Counted from the stretch's first letter, positions 1,080-25,660 are shown. The stretch: DNA of 64,000 nt from an uncultured Bryobacteraceae bacterium (GCA_937924525.1 CALDSU010000008.1:372001-436000), one strand, 5' to 3'. Numbers and translations are program-made. The notes: generated from the letters alone by a model not told the origin.

Positions 1080-1097
1080 CATGTTTGATAACAAATG
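1080..1097. promoter_or_regulatory. AT-rich imperfect palindrome between divergent genes
   Basis: CATGTTTGATAACAAATG has an inner inverted repeat TTTG-ATAA-CAAA and an outer CAT/ATG pair, with one bulged base. It lies in the short divergent space between the hydrolase and the PHP gene and is far more AT-rich than its surroundings. It could be an operator or simply promoter DNA. It is only a candidate. Confidence 0.25.
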
Positions 1098-1148
1098 TTT
1101 CGCCGGGCGGTCAACGTCCTGTAACCGCGTCCCGGATACAACGAATTC

Positions 1149-16967: not shown

Positions 16968-17347
16968 ACTGCGACGGAAACTGGCATGGGGTCTTGGCTT
17001 GGCTGCCGCCGTTGCGGCTTTCGGCTCATCATCTTGCCTCGATGGTAGCAGGCTGGGGGACCTGCCGAGGCAACGACGCCGGAGAACGCCTGGCTCACGT
17101 TAAGCTGCCACCCTTATTGCGCGGTGGCGATGGAACGCCCCAAAAACCGTGAGCGCAATTTTTACCGTCCCGCAAGCAAATCGTCATTTATCTGTAACTA
17201 TTCGGCTGTTATCGTGGGGCTTCGTAAGTGAAGTGATCTCAGCTCGGCTTCTCGTGATCTGCATCCGCTGGGAACACACGCTGATTTCGAAACAGGCGTG
17301 AGTGGAGCACCTGTAGTTCGAACCTCAACACAACAAAGGACTTCTCG
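16968..17347. other. 380-nt intergenic region, AT-rich in its second half
   Basis: The first half is GC-rich and holds no convincing gene. A 51-codon frame overlapping the MFS end looks like a lipoprotein signal but is probably chance. From about 17155 the DNA turns AT-rich and contains direct repeats of a CTGTnAy type at 17181, 17192 and 17206. The region ends with AAAGGACTTCTCG, the ribosome binding site of the TIGR03437 gene. It is the likely promoter of the 17.3-22.8 kb operon. Confidence 0.6.
17181..17212 (+). promoter_or_regulatory. Pho-box-like direct repeats and -10 candidate
   Basis: TCGTCAT-TTAT-CTGTAAC (17181-17198) resembles the PhoB box CTGTCAT-AWAW-CTGTCAY: two 7-mers spaced by four A/T bases with an 11-bp period. 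A third repeat CTGTTAT (17206-17212) follows, and TGTTAT within it could serve as a -10, at about the distance expected when a Pho box replaces the -35. The downstream locus ends with a phosphoesterase. The match is by eye and imperfect. Confidence 0.4.
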
Positions 17348-18106
17348 ATGAAAGTATTTGCTCTTGCTGCTGCGCTGGTTTGTCTGGGCGCGGGGACCGT
17401 GGACGCCCAGAACCGAATAGTAGTGGTAAACGGAGCTCGCTTTGAGCAGGGCTTTCCGCTGGCCCCGGGCACCTATGCCCAAGCCTTTGGTGACTTCGCC
17501 GGGGTTTCGACCGCCACTGCAGCCACGGTGCCCTTGCCGACTGAATTGGGCGGGATCAGTGTGCTGGTGGGAACGACGCGCGCGCCGCTGTACGCGGTCA
17601 CGTCGCAAGCGGTCGCCTTTGTGGTGCCGTTCAATACCGAGCCCGGGCGGGTGCGGGTGCGCGTCCAGCGTGGCGGCGCCGACCTTGGAGCGGGCGATGT
17701 GGACATTTTTCAGGTTTCCCCGGGGATTTTTTTTGACGGAGCGTCCCCGGTTCGCCAGGGCGGCGTGCTCAATCAGGCTGGCCAATACGCCGTGGACGGC
17801 GCTCCCGCCCGGCGAGGCCAAGTGATTCAAATTTTCGCTACTGGTCAAGGCGCGGTAACTCCCGCCGTGGCCGACGGTGCGGTTCCGCCTGCCGGAACCT
17901 TAGCGAACGCTCGCGGCGCCACGAAGGTCTTTGTCTCGGTCGATGAGGCCCAGGTGCTCTTCAGCGGTCTCTCTCCCCAGTTTCCCGGCCTCTGGCAGAT
18001 CAACGCGGTCGTTCCCGATAAGCCTTATATCTCCGGGCAGGTGCCCTTGGTGGTCACCATTGACGGGCTCCCCTCGAATCAGGTGAGTTTCCGGGTGGCT
18101 GAGTAG
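17348..18106 (+). CDS. TIGR03437-domain secreted protein
   Basis: The 252-aa protein has a signal peptide (MKVFALAAALVCLGAGTVDA). It matches the Solibacter-type TIGR03437 domain: VVNGARFEQGFPLAPGTYAQAFG, VLVGTTRAPLYAVTSQAVAFVVP, IFATGQGAVTP and the closing PGLWQINAVVPDKP...VTIDGLPSNQVSF. This Ig-like, extracytoplasmic domain has no established function and usually caps long secreted proteins; here it forms the whole protein. AAAGGA precedes the ATG. It is the first gene of an apparent operon with the TonB receptor 22 nt downstream. The Pho-box-like repeat lies about 135 nt upstream. Confidence 0.85.
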   Translation: MKVFALAAALVCLGAGTVDAQNRIVVVNGARFEQGFPLAPGTYAQAFGDFAGVSTATAATVPLPTELGGISVLVGTTRAPLYAVTSQAVAFVVPFNTEPGRVRVRVQRGGADLGAGDVDIFQVSPGIFFDGASPVRQGGVLNQAGQYAVDGAPARRGQVIQIFATGQGAVTPAVADGAVPPAGTLANARGATKVFVSVDEAQVLFSGLSPQFPGLWQINAVVPDKPYISGQVPLVVTIDGLPSNQVSFRVAE

Positions 18107-18128
18107 CCGTCCATAATTCAGGGCGATC

Positions 18129-20933
18129 ATGATGCAGTTTTGCTGTCGTGTTGTTGTTCTGTTCGTGTCCCTGGTCGCCGTGCTCTCGTCGTCCGCGCAA
18201 TCGCCATCATCTGAAGGTTTGGCGGATGCCGGGAAGCAAGGCACGATCGCGGGAACCGTTTTCGATGCAAATAACGGCCAGCCAATCCGGGCGGCGCATG
18301 TCTCAATCAAGGGTCAAGCTCTGACCCTAGTCACGGACACCGACGGACGCTTTCAAGTTAGAGTCGCGCCAGGAACTTATTCCTTGGTCGTGACTTCCCC
18401 TCGCTACGTGGACGTGGAAGTAGCGGATGTGGTGGTGGTCGCTGGCGAGGTCGCCGAAGCAAGTACGGTCATGGTGGCCAAAGGCACGGTGACGACAGTC
18501 GACGTCGTGGAAAAAGTGGGCGCGGTAGAAGCCACCGCTGCCGCGATGCTGGCCGAACGAAAGTTGTCGGGTAGTGTAACGGATGGCCTCTCCAGCGAGG
18601 AGATTCGCAAAACCGTCGCGTCTGACGCCGCGGGCGCCGTCGAGAAGGTTACCGGAGTTTCCATCGTGGGCGAAGGATACGTGTATGTCCGAGGCATGGG
18701 CGAACGTTATAGCGCCACCATGTTGAATAACTCCGTGCTGCCCACGACGGATCCGGAGAGGCGGGTGGTTCCCCTGGACCTGTTTCCTGCGTCCCTGATC
18801 GATCAAATCAAGGTGCTCAAGACGTATTCGCCCGATTTGCCCGGTGAATTTTCCGCCGGACTCGTTCAGTTGCAGACTATTGAGTTTCCAACCAAGCGGC
18901 TCTTCCGTTTCGGTTACAGCACCGGCTTCAACACCCGCACGACCTTCCAGCCCTTTCAGAGCTATGCGGGCGGTCGCCGCGACTTCTTCGGCTTCGACGA
19001 CGGGACCCGCTCCATTCCAGCTGCCATTCCCACCGACGATCGCCTGTTTCAAGGCCGCTTTCCCGCGGAACAAGTGCAGGCCTTCGGCCGTTCGTTCTCG
19101 AGGAATTGGGAGCCTCGGCCCATCGGCAGCATGCGTCCCGTTCAAACGTTCAACTTGGCCGGAGGCGACACCTTTGGCAAGTTTGGACTCGTCGGCGCGG
19201 TCACCTTCACAAATCAGCCCCAGCGCTACGCACAAGTTCAGCGATTTCTTGCACTGGAAGCCGCCAACCAACCCTTCTTTTTCACTCGCTTTGACGATTT
19301 CCAGACCGACAACGAGGCGACTCGTCTCGGAGCGGTAGGCAACCTCGCGTACCGGATCAACCCTTCCCATAAACTGGTTTGGCGAAACACGCTGAGCCGC
19401 GATTCCGACAAGGAGGCCCGGACCTACGAAGGGCTCTACGGCACCACGGACTCGGTCATTCAGGCGCAGCGGTTGCGCTGGATTGAACGGGGTCTGCTGT
19501 CCACGGGGCTGGAAGGCGAGCATGCGCTGGCGTCACTCGGCAACACCCTGTTCCGTTGGCAGTTTACCGTTTCCAACAGTAAACGCGATGAACCCGACCT
19601 GCGTGAGACCATCCGGACCCAAAACTTCGACGGCACCTTTCGGTGGGCGCCTTTGCAAAATTCCGGGCTGCGATTCTATAACGACCTCACCGACCGAATT
19701 TATGAACCTTTGGCGGAGGTGTCCAAGCCCTTCTACTTTGGCGGCGTGTCGGGCCTCATCAAGACCGGATTCCGCGCCACAATTCGGGAGCGGGACTTCA
19801 ACGCTCGGCGTTTCCGCTTCTTTCAGAGCCGGCTGCCCAACTCGCTGCTGATTCAGCCGACCAACACTATCTTCGCGCCGGAAAACATCAATCCAAACGG
19901 ATTGGTTTTATTGGAGGAAACCCGGACTACGGACGCGTACCAGGCGTCGCTTGACATCTATGGCGGCTACGTGATGGCGGACGTGAACCTGAGTCCGCGC
20001 TGGCGGCTGGTCGGCGGCGCGCGCATCGAAGACGCGCAAATGGTCGTCACCACCAGGGAGTCCAAGGTTCCCGGATCGGTGCCGATTGTCTCACGCCTGG
20101 ATAACCGGGACGTTCTTCCTTCCCTGAACCTGATTTATGCCCTCTCTCGCCGTCAGAATCTGCGTTTCGGGTACGGGCGGACGGTCTCCCGGCCGGATTT
20201 TCGCGAGCTCTCTCCTTTCGAATTCCTGAACACCCTTGGGGGATTCACTACGGTTGGCAACCCCGACCTGCTGCGCACCAAGATCGAAAGTCTCGACGGG
20301 CGCTGGGAGTGGTTTCTTGGTGGTGATCAAGTGGTGGCCGCCAGCTATTTCTACAAGCGCTTATCTGACCCCATTGAGGTCTTTCTCCAACCCAGCACCG
20401 GAAGCGACCTGCGTCAGAGCTTCTTCAACGCCGAGGGGGCCAACAACCAGGGTGTGGAACTCGAATTCCGCAAGAATCTCTCCTTCCTCGGCTCCCGTTT
20501 CCGCCCCTTGTCTCTCGTGAGCAATTACACCTTTGTGAACTCCGACGTCGTGCTGGGAGGCACCGACGCGATCGTCGGCATTCTCACTTCGCAGAACCGT
20601 CCGTTGACCGGCCAGTCGCGTCACATCTACAACGTCATTCTCGATTTCGCCAAACCCCAATGGCGTTCCAACGCGCGGTTTTTCATCAATTCCGTTTCGC
20701 GCCGGATCACGGACGTCGGTCTGCTGGGCTTGCCGGATCTCTATCAGGAACGGAATGTGATGATGGATTTCGTTTATCAGTACGACATTAAAGAGAATGG
20801 CAGATGGAGCGTTCGTTTTACAGCCGAGAACCTCGGCGACAACACCTTCCGTTGGACCCAAGGCGGTCTTCTGGTGCGCCAGTACCAGCTGGGCCGTACG
20901 TTTCAGATCGGCACGACCTTCTCATTGTTCTGA
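18129..20933 (+). CDS. TonB-dependent outer-membrane receptor
   Basis: This 934-aa receptor has a signal peptide. A carboxypeptidase-regulatory-like domain follows (about residues 40-115; GTIAGTVFDANNGQPIRAAHVSI, TDTDGRFQVRVAPGTYSLVV). A plug domain comes next (about 140-250; SDAAGAVEKVTGVSIVG, YVYVRGMGERYSATMLNN, PGEFSAGLVQLQT), then a beta-barrel ending in Phe (FQIGTTFSLF). It imports a ligand across the outer membrane using TonB energy. The plug is of the class that often sits next to secreted partner proteins. Its third codon positions look less GC-rich than those of neighbours. The ligand is unknown; linkage to a phosphoesterase suggests a phosphorylated compound, which is inference. Confidence 0.92.
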   Translation: MMQFCCRVVVLFVSLVAVLSSSAQSPSSEGLADAGKQGTIAGTVFDANNGQPIRAAHVSIKGQALTLVTDTDGRFQVRVAPGTYSLVVTSPRYVDVEVADVVVVAGEVAEASTVMVAKGTVTTVDVVEKVGAVEATAAAMLAERKLSGSVTDGLSSEEIRKTVASDAAGAVEKVTGVSIVGEGYVYVRGMGERYSATMLNNSVLPTTDPERRVVPLDLFPASLIDQIKVLKTYSPDLPGEFSAGLVQLQTIEFPTKRLFRFGYSTGFNTRTTFQPFQSYAGGRRDFFGFDDGTRSIPAAIPTDDRLFQGRFPAEQVQAFGRSFSRNWEPRPIGSMRPVQTFNLAGGDTFGKFGLVGAVTFTNQPQRYAQVQRFLALEAANQPFFFTRFDDFQTDNEATRLGAVGNLAYRINPSHKLVWRNTLSRDSDKEARTYEGLYGTTDSVIQAQRLRWIERGLLSTGLEGEHALASLGNTLFRWQFTVSNSKRDEPDLRETIRTQNFDGTFRWAPLQNSGLRFYNDLTDRIYEPLAEVSKPFYFGGVSGLIKTGFRATIRERDFNARRFRFFQSRLPNSLLIQPTNTIFAPENINPNGLVLLEETRTTDAYQASLDIYGGYVMADVNLSPRWRLVGGARIEDAQMVVTTRESKVPGSVPIVSRLDNRDVLPSLNLIYALSRRQNLRFGYGRTVSRPDFRELSPFEFLNTLGGFTTVGNPDLLRTKIESLDGRWEWFLGGDQVVAASYFYKRLSDPIEVFLQPSTGSDLRQSFFNAEGANNQGVELEFRKNLSFLGSRFRPLSLVSNYTFVNSDVVLGGTDAIVGILTSQNRPLTGQSRHIYNVILDFAKPQWRSNARFFINSVSRRITDVGLLGLPDLYQERNVMMDFVYQYDIKENGRWSVRFTAENLGDNTFRWTQGGLLVRQYQLGRTFQIGTTFSLF

Positions 20934-20983
20934 GAACGCAGTTGTGAAAGATTTCGATTGCACGCAAACAGGAGCCTGACACG

Positions 20984-22795
20984 ATGCAAAAGCAATTTCT
21001 GATTTTGGCCGGGTTGTTGGTGCTGCCGACACTGTCGGTAGCAGCCGGCAGCGCCGGCTTTGAGGCGATATCGTACTCCGAAGCGCGCCGCGAGGCCGAA
21101 GCGCTCAGCCACAACGAATCTCCCGCGTCGCTTTATATCTGGACGAATAAGGTTGTGTATTCGCCCGGCGACCCCCTAACTTTGCGGTGGACATCCAAGC
21201 CGAACAACGACCTGTATCCCTACACCTTGTTCGCCTACCGCCTCAATAACCAGACCGGAGCCAAGACTTACTTGCCGGGCAACAGCGCGGAAGTTACCGA
21301 TATTTTCGGCAACACCGCATCGCAGGGTTATCGCATTACCCGGCTTCCAGAGGCGAGCAAGCAAGTTCTGGTCGGATCTGGCGGCATTCTGGTTTCGTCG
21401 ACCGTGGCCGTGCCCAACGAGCCGGGGATGCACACGCTGGTGCTGGAATTGCGCGATTTCACCGCCACGCGGGTGATCAAGTCCGCTTATTACAAGATCA
21501 GCGTGGTGACTGAGTTCGTGAACGTGTCCGGCAATATCGAGTCCAGCGTGACGTGGGTAAATTCCAAGGCCTATCGCGTGACGGGCATCGTGTTCGTACG
21601 GAACAATGCGGTACTGACGATCGAACCGGGCACCGTGATCCTCGGCCAGCCTAGTGCTCCTCCCAATCCGTCGACCATCGTGATCACCCGTACCGGGCGC
21701 ATCGTCGCCAACGGCACCAAGAGCCGGCCGATCATCATGACGAGTTCGCGGGACGTCGGCCAGCGGGACCGCGGCGACTGGGGCGGTTTGATTCTTCTTG
21801 GCCGGGCGCGCATCAATGTGGGCGCCGAGGCGGTAATCGAAGGCCTGCCCGATTCGCCCGATTCGCGTTTCGGACCAGGTAGCGGCCAAGCCGATGAAAA
21901 TCATAACTGCGGTTCGTTGCGCTATGTGCGTGTCGAGTTCGCCGGCGCGGTTTTGGCCCCCGGCAGCGAGGTGAACGGCATCACTTGGGGAGGATGCGGC
22001 AAAGCCACCGTGTCGGAACACCTCCAGTCGCACTATGGCTTCGACGACGCCTTTGAGTGGTTCGGGGGAAACAACGACGGCAGGTACTTGGTCGCCTCCT
22101 TCGCACGCGATGACTATTTCGACTGGCAACTGGGCTGGACCGGCCGGCTCCAGTTCGGCGTCGCTGTCGCGAATGGCGACTTCGGCAACCGTGGCATCGA
22201 AGCGGATAACTTGTCAAACCCGCAGGACGCCCAGCCGATTTCGAACCCCACTCTCTACAACTTCTCCTTCATCGGGAATCCCCTCTCTATTGAGGAGGAT
22301 GTCAACGCAAACGCCGGCATCTGGCTGCGCCGCGGCACCGCCGGCACGCTGCGGAATGTGGTGGTTTTTGACTGGAACCAAACAGGAATCGAAATCCGCG
22401 ATACCGGCACGGTGAATCAGATTAACGCTGGAAACTTGCGGCTGGATGGTTTGCTCTTGTGGAACAACGGCCGCGACCGGCAGGGCGGCGCGGTGAACAC
22501 GCTCGAAGGTCAGGTTGGCTCGCCCAATACGCCCGCCGCGGTACTTGGCCCGCTCCGCACTTGGGTATCCGGTTCGCCCCGCATTTTCGTAGAGGACCCG
22601 AAGATGCGCCGGCCGCTCGAGTACTCGAATCCGGACTTTCGCCCTGGCCCGGGTTCGCCTCTGTGGAAGCCCGGCTGGGTGCAACCCCCTGATGATGGGT
22701 TCTTCGACCAGTCGGCGCGTTTCCTCGGCGCGTTTGGGGACGTCGACTGGACCGAGGAGTGGACTTCGTTCCACGTCGAGACGGAGCTCCGCTAA
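20984..22795 (+). CDS. secreted receptor-associated protein, Gly/Trp-rich repeats
   Basis: This is a 603-aa protein with a signal peptide (ILAGLLVLPTLSVAAG). A short beta-sandwich-like part comes first (YSPGDPLTLRW). A long region then resembles secreted proteins paired with TonB receptors in other phyla: VFVRNNAVLTIEPGTVILG, TRTGRIVANGTKSRPIIMTS, RGDWGGLILLG, LRYVRVEFAG, DDAFEWFGG and DDYFDWQLGWTGRLQFG. These alternating strand and turn motifs suggest a right-handed beta-helix. It lies 50 nt after the receptor and ends before a strong terminator. It may be the ligand-capturing partner of the receptor, but no biochemical role is known to me. Confidence 0.7.
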   Translation: MQKQFLILAGLLVLPTLSVAAGSAGFEAISYSEARREAEALSHNESPASLYIWTNKVVYSPGDPLTLRWTSKPNNDLYPYTLFAYRLNNQTGAKTYLPGNSAEVTDIFGNTASQGYRITRLPEASKQVLVGSGGILVSSTVAVPNEPGMHTLVLELRDFTATRVIKSAYYKISVVTEFVNVSGNIESSVTWVNSKAYRVTGIVFVRNNAVLTIEPGTVILGQPSAPPNPSTIVITRTGRIVANGTKSRPIIMTSSRDVGQRDRGDWGGLILLGRARINVGAEAVIEGLPDSPDSRFGPGSGQADENHNCGSLRYVRVEFAGAVLAPGSEVNGITWGGCGKATVSEHLQSHYGFDDAFEWFGGNNDGRYLVASFARDDYFDWQLGWTGRLQFGVAVANGDFGNRGIEADNLSNPQDAQPISNPTLYNFSFIGNPLSIEEDVNANAGIWLRRGTAGTLRNVVVFDWNQTGIEIRDTGTVNQINAGNLRLDGLLLWNNGRDRQGGAVNTLEGQVGSPNTPAAVLGPLRTWVSGSPRIFVEDPKMRRPLEYSNPDFRPGPGSPLWKPGWVQPPDDGFFDQSARFLGAFGDVDWTEEWTSFHVETELR

Positions 22796-22817
22796 GCGGA
22801 GAATAAACTCCTCTGTG

Positions 22818-22852
22818 GCCCGGGCTCCCGTCGAAGGGATCCCGGGCTTTTT
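22818..22852 (+). terminator. strong Rho-independent terminator
   Basis: GCCCGGG-CT-CCC, a short loop, GGG-AT-CCCGGGC and then TTTTT. The long GC stem followed directly by five T is a classic intrinsic terminator. It closes the TIGR03437-receptor-secreted protein operon and separates it from the phosphoesterase gene. Confidence 0.85.
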
Positions 22853-22960
22853 CATCTGTGCCCTCCACCAGCGATTTCTTTGCCCTCCTAGGCGTAGCAG
22901 CCGGAACGAGCCTGAACCGAGGTCCGAGGATTGCCGGATTCAAGCTATAAAGAGTAAGCG

Positions 22961-25660
22961 ATGTCTTCAGCTTGCGCAGTGCGCGCGGTGGTTTGCCTAG
23001 TAGTGCTGGGGCTTCTGTTGGCCGCCGCCGACTATCGAGGTCCTGCCGGCGATCGCGCCGCCCAAAGGCGCGCCGAAGGTACAAGCATCCTGCCCGGCGG
23101 CCGGTTGATCGCGCCCCATGGCGCGCAGTACGTCACTGGACCAGGTCCTTTCGGCTTGGCCGTGAGCCCGAGCGGCCGGCGCGCGGCCACTGCCAACAGC
23201 GGGCCGGACCGCTTCTCTGTTACCCTGCTCGACAAGCCCAAGGACCGGTTTCGCACGGTCCGCCATTTCGTCGCCGAGCGACGCAAACGCGGCGAAGCGC
23301 CTGGAGAGAACAGCGAGTGGCGAAGCGTGTTCATGGGCTTGGCTTTCTCCGACGACCGCACGTTGTATGCTTCTGACGGGAACTCGGGCCAGGTGCGCGT
23401 GCTGGATCCAGAGTCGGGCCAGACGCGCCGCGTTCTTGCGCTGGACGGGGAGTTTGGCGGGGTCGCCTATCGCGACAGCTACTCCGGTGACCTGGCGCTC
23501 GACGCGGAACGCGGCCGTCTCTACGTGGTCGACCAGGCTAATTTCCGCGCGGTCGCCTTGGATCTGCGCTCGGGCCGGGTGGTTTCTTCCCTGCGGCTGG
23601 GGCGCCTTCCGTTCGCGCTGGCCCTGTCGCCGGACAAACGCAAACTCTACGTCACCAATATCGGTATGTTCGAATACCAGGCGATCGAAGGCGCGGACCG
23701 CAAGCGCGCCCGCGAAACCGGCCTGCCGTTCGCCGCGTTTGGCTTCCCGTCTGCGGAATCGCTGAGCGGAACCACCGCGGAGACCGGCAGCGGCCGAACC
23801 GTCCGCGTGCCTGGCCTGGGCGATCCGAACGTGCAGGAATCCAATTCGCTCGCGATGGTCGACCTGTCCGGCGAGGAGATGAAGCTCGAGGGCTTCGTGC
23901 GCACGGGCCTCGCCTTTGGCCAGGACGGCGCGGCAGGCGGCAGTAGTCCCGCGGGCGTCGCGGTCACGGACCGTTATGTCTTCGTCTCGAACGGCCACAA
24001 CGACACGATCACCGTCCTCGATCGCGATTCCGGCAAGCGAGTGAGGGACGTGCCGATCCGCATTCCCGGTCTGGAGAAACTCCGCGGCGTACTGCCCATC
24101 GGCATGGCTTTTCACGCCACCAGTGGCTGGCTGCTGATCGCCGAAGCGGGCATCAACGCCGTCGGTGTGCTCGATACCCGCAAGATGGAGGTCGTCGGAC
24201 ATATCCCCGCCGGCTGGTTCCCTTCGCGCGTCGCGCTGGACGGCGACGACGTCTACGTCACCAACGTCCGCGGCAATGGAACCGGACCTAACATTCGCCC
24301 TCCGGATGAAGACTCTTTTGTGGGCGTGATCCGCCGCGGCAGCATCTCGGTCTACCCGCTGCCCGGCCCCGAGGAGTTGCCCAAGCTGACTGCCGCCGCG
24401 CTGGGCGCCGCCGGCTTCGCGCCCTTGCGCGAGCAGCCGGCGCCGCTGCCCGAACAGATTCGCCACGTGGTCATCATCGTGAAGGAGAACCGCACCTTTG
24501 ACGAAGTCTTCGGCGACCTGCGCGAAGCAGCCAACGGCAGGGTACGGGGATTTCCCGGGCTGGCGCGGTTCGGCGCGCGCGGTTTTGCCCGCGGCCGTGG
24601 CGAACGCTTCAGCCTCCAGGACGTCAACGTGACGCCGAATCACCGCAAGCTGGCCGAATTGTACGCTTTCAGCGACAATTTCTACGCCGACTCCGAGGTG
24701 AGCGTCGACGGGCACCATTGGGTTGTCGGCGCCTACCCGAATGCCTGGACCGAGACCACCTACCGCGCCGCCTACGCCGGCGAAAAGGACTTCCGCCTGC
24801 CGACGTCCGCGCCGGGCCGCCTGCTTTATCCGGGCAGCAACTCCTCGGTGCATCCGGAAGAACAACCAGAAGCCGGCGCCATCTGGCACCACCTGGAACG
24901 CCATGGCATCCCCTTTCGTAATTTCGGCGAGGGCTTCGAGTTGGCCGGGATAGACGAGGGCGTGGGGCTGAAACCCACCGGCGCGCGGTTCCTCACCAAC
25001 GTGCCGATGCCGGATCCGCTGTACCGCAACACGTCCCGCCGCTACCCGGGCTATAACATGAACATTCCGGACCAGTACCGCGCCACGCAGTTCATCGCGG
25101 AAATCGAAGAGTTGTATCGGGCGCCCGGCAAGCCTCTGCCGCGGCTGTTGTTTCTCCACCTGCCCAACGATCACATGGCGCGGGCGCGCCCGGAAGACGG
25201 TTATCCCTACGAGGAATCGTTCGTCGCCGACAACGACTACGCGCTGGGCCGCATCGTCGAATACCTGTCCCGCAGTCCCTGGTGGCGGCAGCTGGTCATC
25301 TTTATCACGGAAGACGATGCGCAAGGCGGGCGGGACCACATCGACTCGCACCGCACGGTGTTGCTGGTGGTGAGTCCGTGGACCAAGAAGAACTACGTTT
25401 CGCGCGTCAACACCAGTTTCCCGGGGCTGCTCAAGACCGCGTTCCGCATCCTGGGGTTGCCGCCGCTGAACTTGTTCGACGCGGCCGCGACGGACCTGAG
25501 CGATTGCTTCACGGACGAGCCCGACTTCACGCCCTACACCGTGCAGCCCATCGACCCCCGGCTCTTCGTTCCAGGCAAGGCTCGCGAGCCCATGGATCCC
25601 AAGCCCAGCCCCCGCATGGACGATCCGGCCGTGCTGCGCGACCAGCACCGCCGGCAGTAA
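22961..25660 (+). CDS. secreted YncE-type beta-propeller / alkaline-phosphatase-fold phosphoesterase
   Basis: The 899-aa protein has a signal peptide. A YVTN/YncE-like beta-propeller follows (about 50-480; repeats such as GPFGLAVSPSGRRAATANS, FALALSPDKRKLYVTN, GVAVTDRYVFVSNGHNDTI). A phosphoesterase domain (PF04185 type, about 500-870) begins IRHVVIIVKENRTFDEVFG and includes YAFSDNFYADSEVSVDGHHW, LHLPNDHM, DNDYALGRIVEYLS and FITEDDAQGGRDHIDSHRT. These residues include the Glu/Asn and Asp/His metal ligands of acid phosphatases and phospholipase C. It probably releases phosphate from esters in the periplasm or outside. TATAAA sits 9 nt before the ATG, and it follows the terminator of the receptor operon. 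Confidence 0.9.
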   Translation: MSSACAVRAVVCLVVLGLLLAAADYRGPAGDRAAQRRAEGTSILPGGRLIAPHGAQYVTGPGPFGLAVSPSGRRAATANSGPDRFSVTLLDKPKDRFRTVRHFVAERRKRGEAPGENSEWRSVFMGLAFSDDRTLYASDGNSGQVRVLDPESGQTRRVLALDGEFGGVAYRDSYSGDLALDAERGRLYVVDQANFRAVALDLRSGRVVSSLRLGRLPFALALSPDKRKLYVTNIGMFEYQAIEGADRKRARETGLPFAAFGFPSAESLSGTTAETGSGRTVRVPGLGDPNVQESNSLAMVDLSGEEMKLEGFVRTGLAFGQDGAAGGSSPAGVAVTDRYVFVSNGHNDTITVLDRDSGKRVRDVPIRIPGLEKLRGVLPIGMAFHATSGWLLIAEAGINAVGVLDTRKMEVVGHIPAGWFPSRVALDGDDVYVTNVRGNGTGPNIRPPDEDSFVGVIRRGSISVYPLPGPEELPKLTAAALGAAGFAPLREQPAPLPEQIRHVVIIVKENRTFDEVFGDLREAANGRVRGFPGLARFGARGFARGRGERFSLQDVNVTPNHRKLAELYAFSDNFYADSEVSVDGHHWVVGAYPNAWTETTYRAAYAGEKDFRLPTSAPGRLLYPGSNSSVHPEEQPEAGAIWHHLERHGIPFRNFGEGFELAGIDEGVGLKPTGARFLTNVPMPDPLYRNTSRRYPGYNMNIPDQYRATQFIAEIEELYRAPGKPLPRLLFLHLPNDHMARARPEDGYPYEESFVADNDYALGRIVEYLSRSPWWRQLVIFITEDDAQGGRDHIDSHRTVLLVVSPWTKKNYVSRVNTSFPGLLKTAFRILGLPPLNLFDAAATDLSDCFTDEPDFTPYTVQPIDPRLFVPGKAREPMDPKPSPRMDDPAVLRDQHRRQ

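Follow-up and report, generated by a model that had tools for sequence, protein, structure and literature searches.

The window, by which we mean the whole 64,000-nucleotide stretch of DNA analysed here, derives from a soil Acidobacterium whose assembly is given as 99% complete. Between positions 17,181 and 25,660 it carries a short direct repeat, three genes closed by an intrinsic terminator, and a fourth gene beyond the terminator:

17181..17198, + strand: Pho box, TCGTCAT-TTAT-CTGTAAC, two in-phase repeats, 150 bp 5' of the first start codon
17348..18106, + strand: TIGR03437 protein, 252 aa, secreted, first gene of the operon (NCBIfam TIGR03437, E 9.4e-49)
18129..20933, + strand: TonB-dependent receptor (P0002), 934 aa, with an N-terminal CarboxypepD_reg domain (Pfam PF13620, PF07715 (Plug) and PF00593 (TonB barrel))
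20984..22795, + strand: secreted partner (P0003), 603 aa, predicted Ig-like sandwich and right-handed beta-helix (predicted model and FII homology)
22818..22852, + strand: intrinsic terminator, 11-pair stem and TTTTT (-32.2 kcal/mol for a 66-nt stretch, z -3.65)
22961..25660, + strand: phosphoesterase (P0004), YncE-type propeller and PF04185 (Pfam/NCBIfam)

Read directly from the sequence, the repeat consists of TCGTCAT (17181-17187), a TTAT spacer and CTGTAAC (17192-17198), giving a period of 11 bp. These are the letters reported in a preliminary description of this DNA, which also listed a third copy, CTGTTAT; this copy lies at 17206-17212, shifted by 14 bp, and is thus out of phase with the 11-bp repeat. 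Scored with an E. coli-type PhoB consensus and up to three mismatches, the 64-kb window holds 14 matches against 13.8 expected and the site is unremarkable, as would befit a meaningless chance match; the consensus is that of E. coli and not of the clade, and at this chance level a comparison with relatives was needed to decide the matter. Expectation-maximisation over 14 promoters from the window and 13 relatives, each taken as the 220 bp upstream of the operon's first gene, returned de novo a direct repeat with an 11-bp period, tTcATCGAactGTaAC, corresponding to a clade consensus of tTcATC-N4/5-TGTaAC with a frequent third in-phase copy, and the site picked in the window by this unsupervised search was exactly the repeat at 17181. 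The likelihood ratio of the two-repeat motif was 88.7 compared with 52.4±2.7 (maximum 59.7) in 80 dinucleotide shuffles, and that of the three-repeat form 146.6 compared with 81.7±3.3, values that include a contribution of descent because the promoters are orthologous; the distance from box to start codon varies widely among them, from about 40 to 190 bp. A two-repeat matrix built from the 13 relatives, with the window excluded, ranked 17181 first of ~128,000 positions when both strands of the window were scored, and a three-repeat matrix ranked it second in the window. Together with the transfer of the matrix to pstS promoters described below, these statistics contradict a chance match, which we regard as almost certainly wrong, and indicate that the repeat at 17181 is a genuine, conserved Pho box of the clade, in line with the PhoB-box-like site proposed earlier. 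A genome-wide box search using a sequence-only covariance model gave zero matches and also missed the window's own site at 17181, so that its empty outcome carries no weight.

The genes downstream of the box are likewise kept together in relatives. Relatives of P0003 occur in ten further genomes of the family (48-56% identity) and in three sister-family genomes (47-53%), with remoter ones beyond. Directly 5' of the partner gene, 13 relatives carry a receptor orthologue (47-60% identity to P0002), with a TIGR03437 gene at the head of the operon in 10 of the 13. This order points to a conserved three-gene unit, and we infer that the regulated unit consists of the TIGR03437 protein, the TonB receptor and the secreted beta-helix protein and is ended by the terminator. 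Matrix scan and gene-order comparison thus find both the site and the three-gene order kept among relatives, which bears out the earlier proposal of a TIGR03437, TonB receptor and secreted-partner operon behind the box. A simple promoter/terminator scan did no better than chance and failed to pick up the terminator at 22818-22852, the interrupted stem of which falls outside that scan's rules.

The preliminary description had gone further and included the phosphoesterase encoded at 22961-25660, so that receptor, partner and phosphoesterase would jointly capture and hydrolyse phosphate esters. P0004 is indeed encoded adjacent to the operon on the same strand, across a gap of 166 bp, and PF04185 is a phosphoesterase family, but the terminator at 22818-22852 stands between P0003 and P0004, the box is absent from the promoters of P0004 and of its orthologues (15 of 15), and operon and phosphoesterase gene lie on different contigs in each of the seven relatives that hold both the operon and a close P0004 orthologue (G004, G005, G009, G010, G011, G023 and G032). 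No P0004 match was found in the stretches fetched around orthologous operons, and P0004 orthologues (~60% identity) are also present in many relatives that lack the operon. The terminator, the boxless promoters and the lack of linkage (0/7), the last of which the earlier proposal had itself named as counting against it, place P0004 outside the module and rule it out as a member; we consider joint capture and hydrolysis very improbable, and nothing supports the idea that the module hydrolyses phosphate esters or phospholipids. The P0004 family is expanded, with eight PF04185 match stretches in the host genome, and 59 of 61 genomes contain a match.

Neither PstS (PF12849) nor PhoU (PF01895) is detectable in the host genome; Pit (PF01384) and PhoB/PhoR-like genes are present. 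Among 61 relatives, PstS is matched in 26 and PhoU in 25. Across 37 genomes of the family, those without PstS carry the operon more often than those with it (8/19 versus 3/18), which at p 0.15 and without correction for phylogeny is a trend only, and a replacement of Pst by the operon was therefore not adopted on the basis of presence and absence. Porin O/P, considered as an alternative outer-membrane route, was set aside owing to patchy, weak matches in the host genome.

Further evidence for the identity of the box comes from the pst loci of relatives. With a box matrix that had no pst genes in its training, 9 of the 19 Pst-containing relatives show a site scoring 13 bits or more in the 100 bp upstream of pstS (p 1e-14 relative to how densely these loci carry such sites). 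Among the remaining genes of these loci, 7 of 241 have a site of this strength, and of the seven, four are the gene just 5' of pstS and one is the regulator gene. That a matrix trained on the operon marks pstS promoters argues that the motif is the clade's Pho box.

A PhoB-like regulator of the host genome (G000, contig C10, 202260-202961) is preceded by four in-phase repeats, CTTTCAT-CCAC-TGTTTAC-GACT-CCGTAAC-CGCA-GTGTAAC; these 11-bp repeats (L111:5036-5079) overlap the 3' end of a kinase gene, and autoregulation of the phoB-like gene is likely. The best NCBIfam model for this regulator is PhoB, at a score under the curated cut-off, and it is 72% identical to the regulator directly after pst-phoU in G024, where the order is pst-phoU-phoR-phoB. 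Its orthologues are found near the operon in five relatives from two families, in one case with its kinase alongside. In G009 a Pit-type phosphate permease, there present as two open frames, is divergent from the operon; the promoter of the host's own Pit operon has a weak box only (9.7 bits).

Direct repeats with an 11-bp period are general for the class of OmpR-type regulators, and the box could be real and yet serve another member of this class that responds to a signal other than phosphate. The many OmpR-type and PhoB-like regulators in the host genome and the clade would provide candidates, and the host lacks the usual Pst-PhoU sensor. Against such a regulator speak the pstS promoters, marked by the same matrix, and the orthology of the regulator found near the operons to that of the G024 pst-phoU-phoR-phoB locus, and we judge this explanation quite improbable.

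The secreted partner P0003 has no match in Pfam or NCBIfam. Its AlphaFold2 model (pLDDT 87.5, pTM 0.90) predicts an Ig-like beta-sandwich followed by a parallel beta-helix, for which the closest solved fold, by a weak match, is a GH28 exopolygalacturonase. The acidic motifs DDxFEWFGG, DDxxDxxxG and IExDN are largely invariant and also occur in the Flavobacterium protein, and constitute a candidate ligand or metal site. P0003 shares 33% identity over 435 aa (E 6e-60) with a protein of Flavobacterium micromati, encoded in a locus with the order kinase, regulator, receptor, partner, and by this similarity is homologous to the Flavobacterium FII family. The earlier view of a secreted partner without precedent does not hold, as low phosphate induces this family and a relationship to Caulobacter ElpS has been reported for it.

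P0003 relatives are spread over many phyla, with at least 588 stretches in a scan of species genomes. In 76 P0003-like loci of other lineages, a TonB receptor adjoins the P0003-like gene in 59, and 18 have a PstS, Pit or PhoB-type gene no more than ~8 kb away; a small control set of 14 loci around P0004 orthologues yielded no PstS, Pit or PhoB-type gene and one kinase match. A plasmid search with the Flavobacterium homologue found distant homologues beside TonB receptors, once next to an ExbB-ExbD-TonB cluster. On a megaplasmid of Pseudoalteromonas sp. CF6-2 (L214:359-11228), a DUF3450-ExbB-ExbB-ExbD-TonB-TPR cluster is followed by a P0003-like gene and a TonB receptor, an arrangement suggesting that the pair may have a dedicated energy source in some lineages. 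Three sister-family genomes (G045, G051 and G052) contain giant open frames of ~1,700 to 6,800 codons with P0003-like domains, some of them repeated.

The PUSIV cluster of F. johnsoniae comprises PhoR/PhoB (Fjoh_0543/0544), a TBDT (Fjoh_0545) and an FII lipoprotein (Fjoh_0546), the same arrangement as in F. micromati, and its receptor and FII lipoprotein respond to phosphate depletion, with induction at low phosphate only (PMC8115612). The host operon resembles this cluster in having a homologous receptor type and a beta-helix partner, a pair that in Flavobacterium stands beside phoB/phoR in hosts mostly without Pst. It differs in that phoB/phoR are elsewhere in the genome, a TIGR03437 gene leads the operon, and the partner has an extra N-terminal Ig-like domain and no lipobox. 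As its signal peptide, MQKQFLILAGLLVLPTLSVAAG, contains no cysteine, we class P0003 as a variant and not as ElpS itself. The missing lipobox, the extra N-terminal domain, the TIGR03437 leader gene and a host without detectable Pst characterise this variant.

ElpS of Caulobacter (CC0170) is, comparably, a surface-located protein made at low phosphate that co-occurs with a TonB receptor, CC0171 (PMC2996285); the kinship of P0003 with ElpS rests on the report that FI-FIII are 31-36% identical to the Caulobacter protein (PMC8115612). Unlike the host partner, ElpS is a lipoprotein encoded beside a type II secretion locus, and its receptor gene is not induced at low phosphate (PMC2996285). No phosphatase activity was seen for ElpS itself, ElpS was still made after deletion of the receptor, and intracellular phosphate showed no detectable change upon a shift to poor medium (PMC2996285). 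Flavobacterium PusCD is a further outer-membrane transporter of the TonB type, likewise tied to low phosphate and equipped with a surface partner (PMC8115612), from which the host operon differs by the lack of a phosphatase and by a partner that is a beta-helix and not SusD-type, with no Pfam SusD match. With the classical Pho regulon (PhoB, PstSCAB-PhoU) the host shares a PhoB/PhoR-type pair and 11-bp direct-repeat boxes, but it has no detectable PstS or PhoU, and the clade consensus is not CTGTCAT. The host operon thus appears, from its sequence, to be a variant of the known receptor/surface-protein pair of Caulobacter and Flavobacterium.

We posit, with a probability of roughly 0.6, that the genes at 17348-22795 are an operon switched on by PhoB and devoted to acquiring phosphorus at the outer membrane, given the conserved box, the PhoB/PhoR-type genes, the terminator that closes the unit and the pairing of the receptor with FII/ElpS-like proteins across phyla. 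Under phosphate starvation, the PhoB-like regulator on contig C10 would bind the box and activate the operon. The secreted beta-helix protein, perhaps together with the TIGR03437 protein, may then capture or present a phosphorus-bearing substrate at the cell surface, and this substrate, be it phosphate itself, one of its esters or a polymer with bound phosphate, would pass into the periplasm via the TonB receptor. Phosphate would finally enter through the Pit permease, which is proposed as the entry route because no Pst is detectable in the host genome.

The operon could also be phosphate-regulated and yet import no phosphorus, with the partner binding or cutting a polysaccharide and the receptor moving a glycan, a metal complex or a signal required under phosphate scarcity, or helping to place the partner at the surface. 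The weak GH28 exopolygalacturonase fold match, the polygalacturonase-like model of the FII family put forward by the Flavobacterium authors (PMC8115612) and the absence of a phosphatase from the operon would all fit such a function; the linkage that ties the receptor/partner pair, in several phyla, to genes for PstS, Pit and PhoB-type regulators argues against it, and we consider it unlikely. If the genes do serve phosphorus acquisition, the receptor with its beta-helix and TIGR03437 partners, driven by PhoB, might even be the main high-affinity entry for phosphorus in Acidobacteria without PstSCAB-PhoU, with an energised step at the outer membrane that supplies Pit instead of a periplasmic ABC importer, a broader proposal that we make tentatively and hold to be rather doubtful. 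Were it true, it would give a TIGR03437 protein its first role. The receptor/beta-helix pair of several phyla is tied once more to phosphate starvation, and the question is raised of how phosphate is sensed and gathered by bacteria that have PhoB/PhoR-type genes but in which neither Pst nor PhoU can be detected. A Pho box for this poorly cultured soil group may also allow its phosphate regulon to be read from sequence alone.

A further site in the window, at 1097-1125 (+ strand), is the third-best for the two-repeat matrix and the best for the three-repeat matrix; it lies 23 bp 5' of an ORF (1149-2027) for a PHP_C / CehA-McbA-like metallohydrolase, which is a possible second member of the Pho regulon. 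In pst loci of relatives, a secreted protein with a coiled-coil-like start and its own Pho box is encoded 5' of pstS (L122:3459-5117, L126:5754-7445, L127:5114-6883 and L129:4656-6431). The two examples searched have no Pfam match, and from its box and position the protein appears to be an uncharacterised member of the phosphate regulon.
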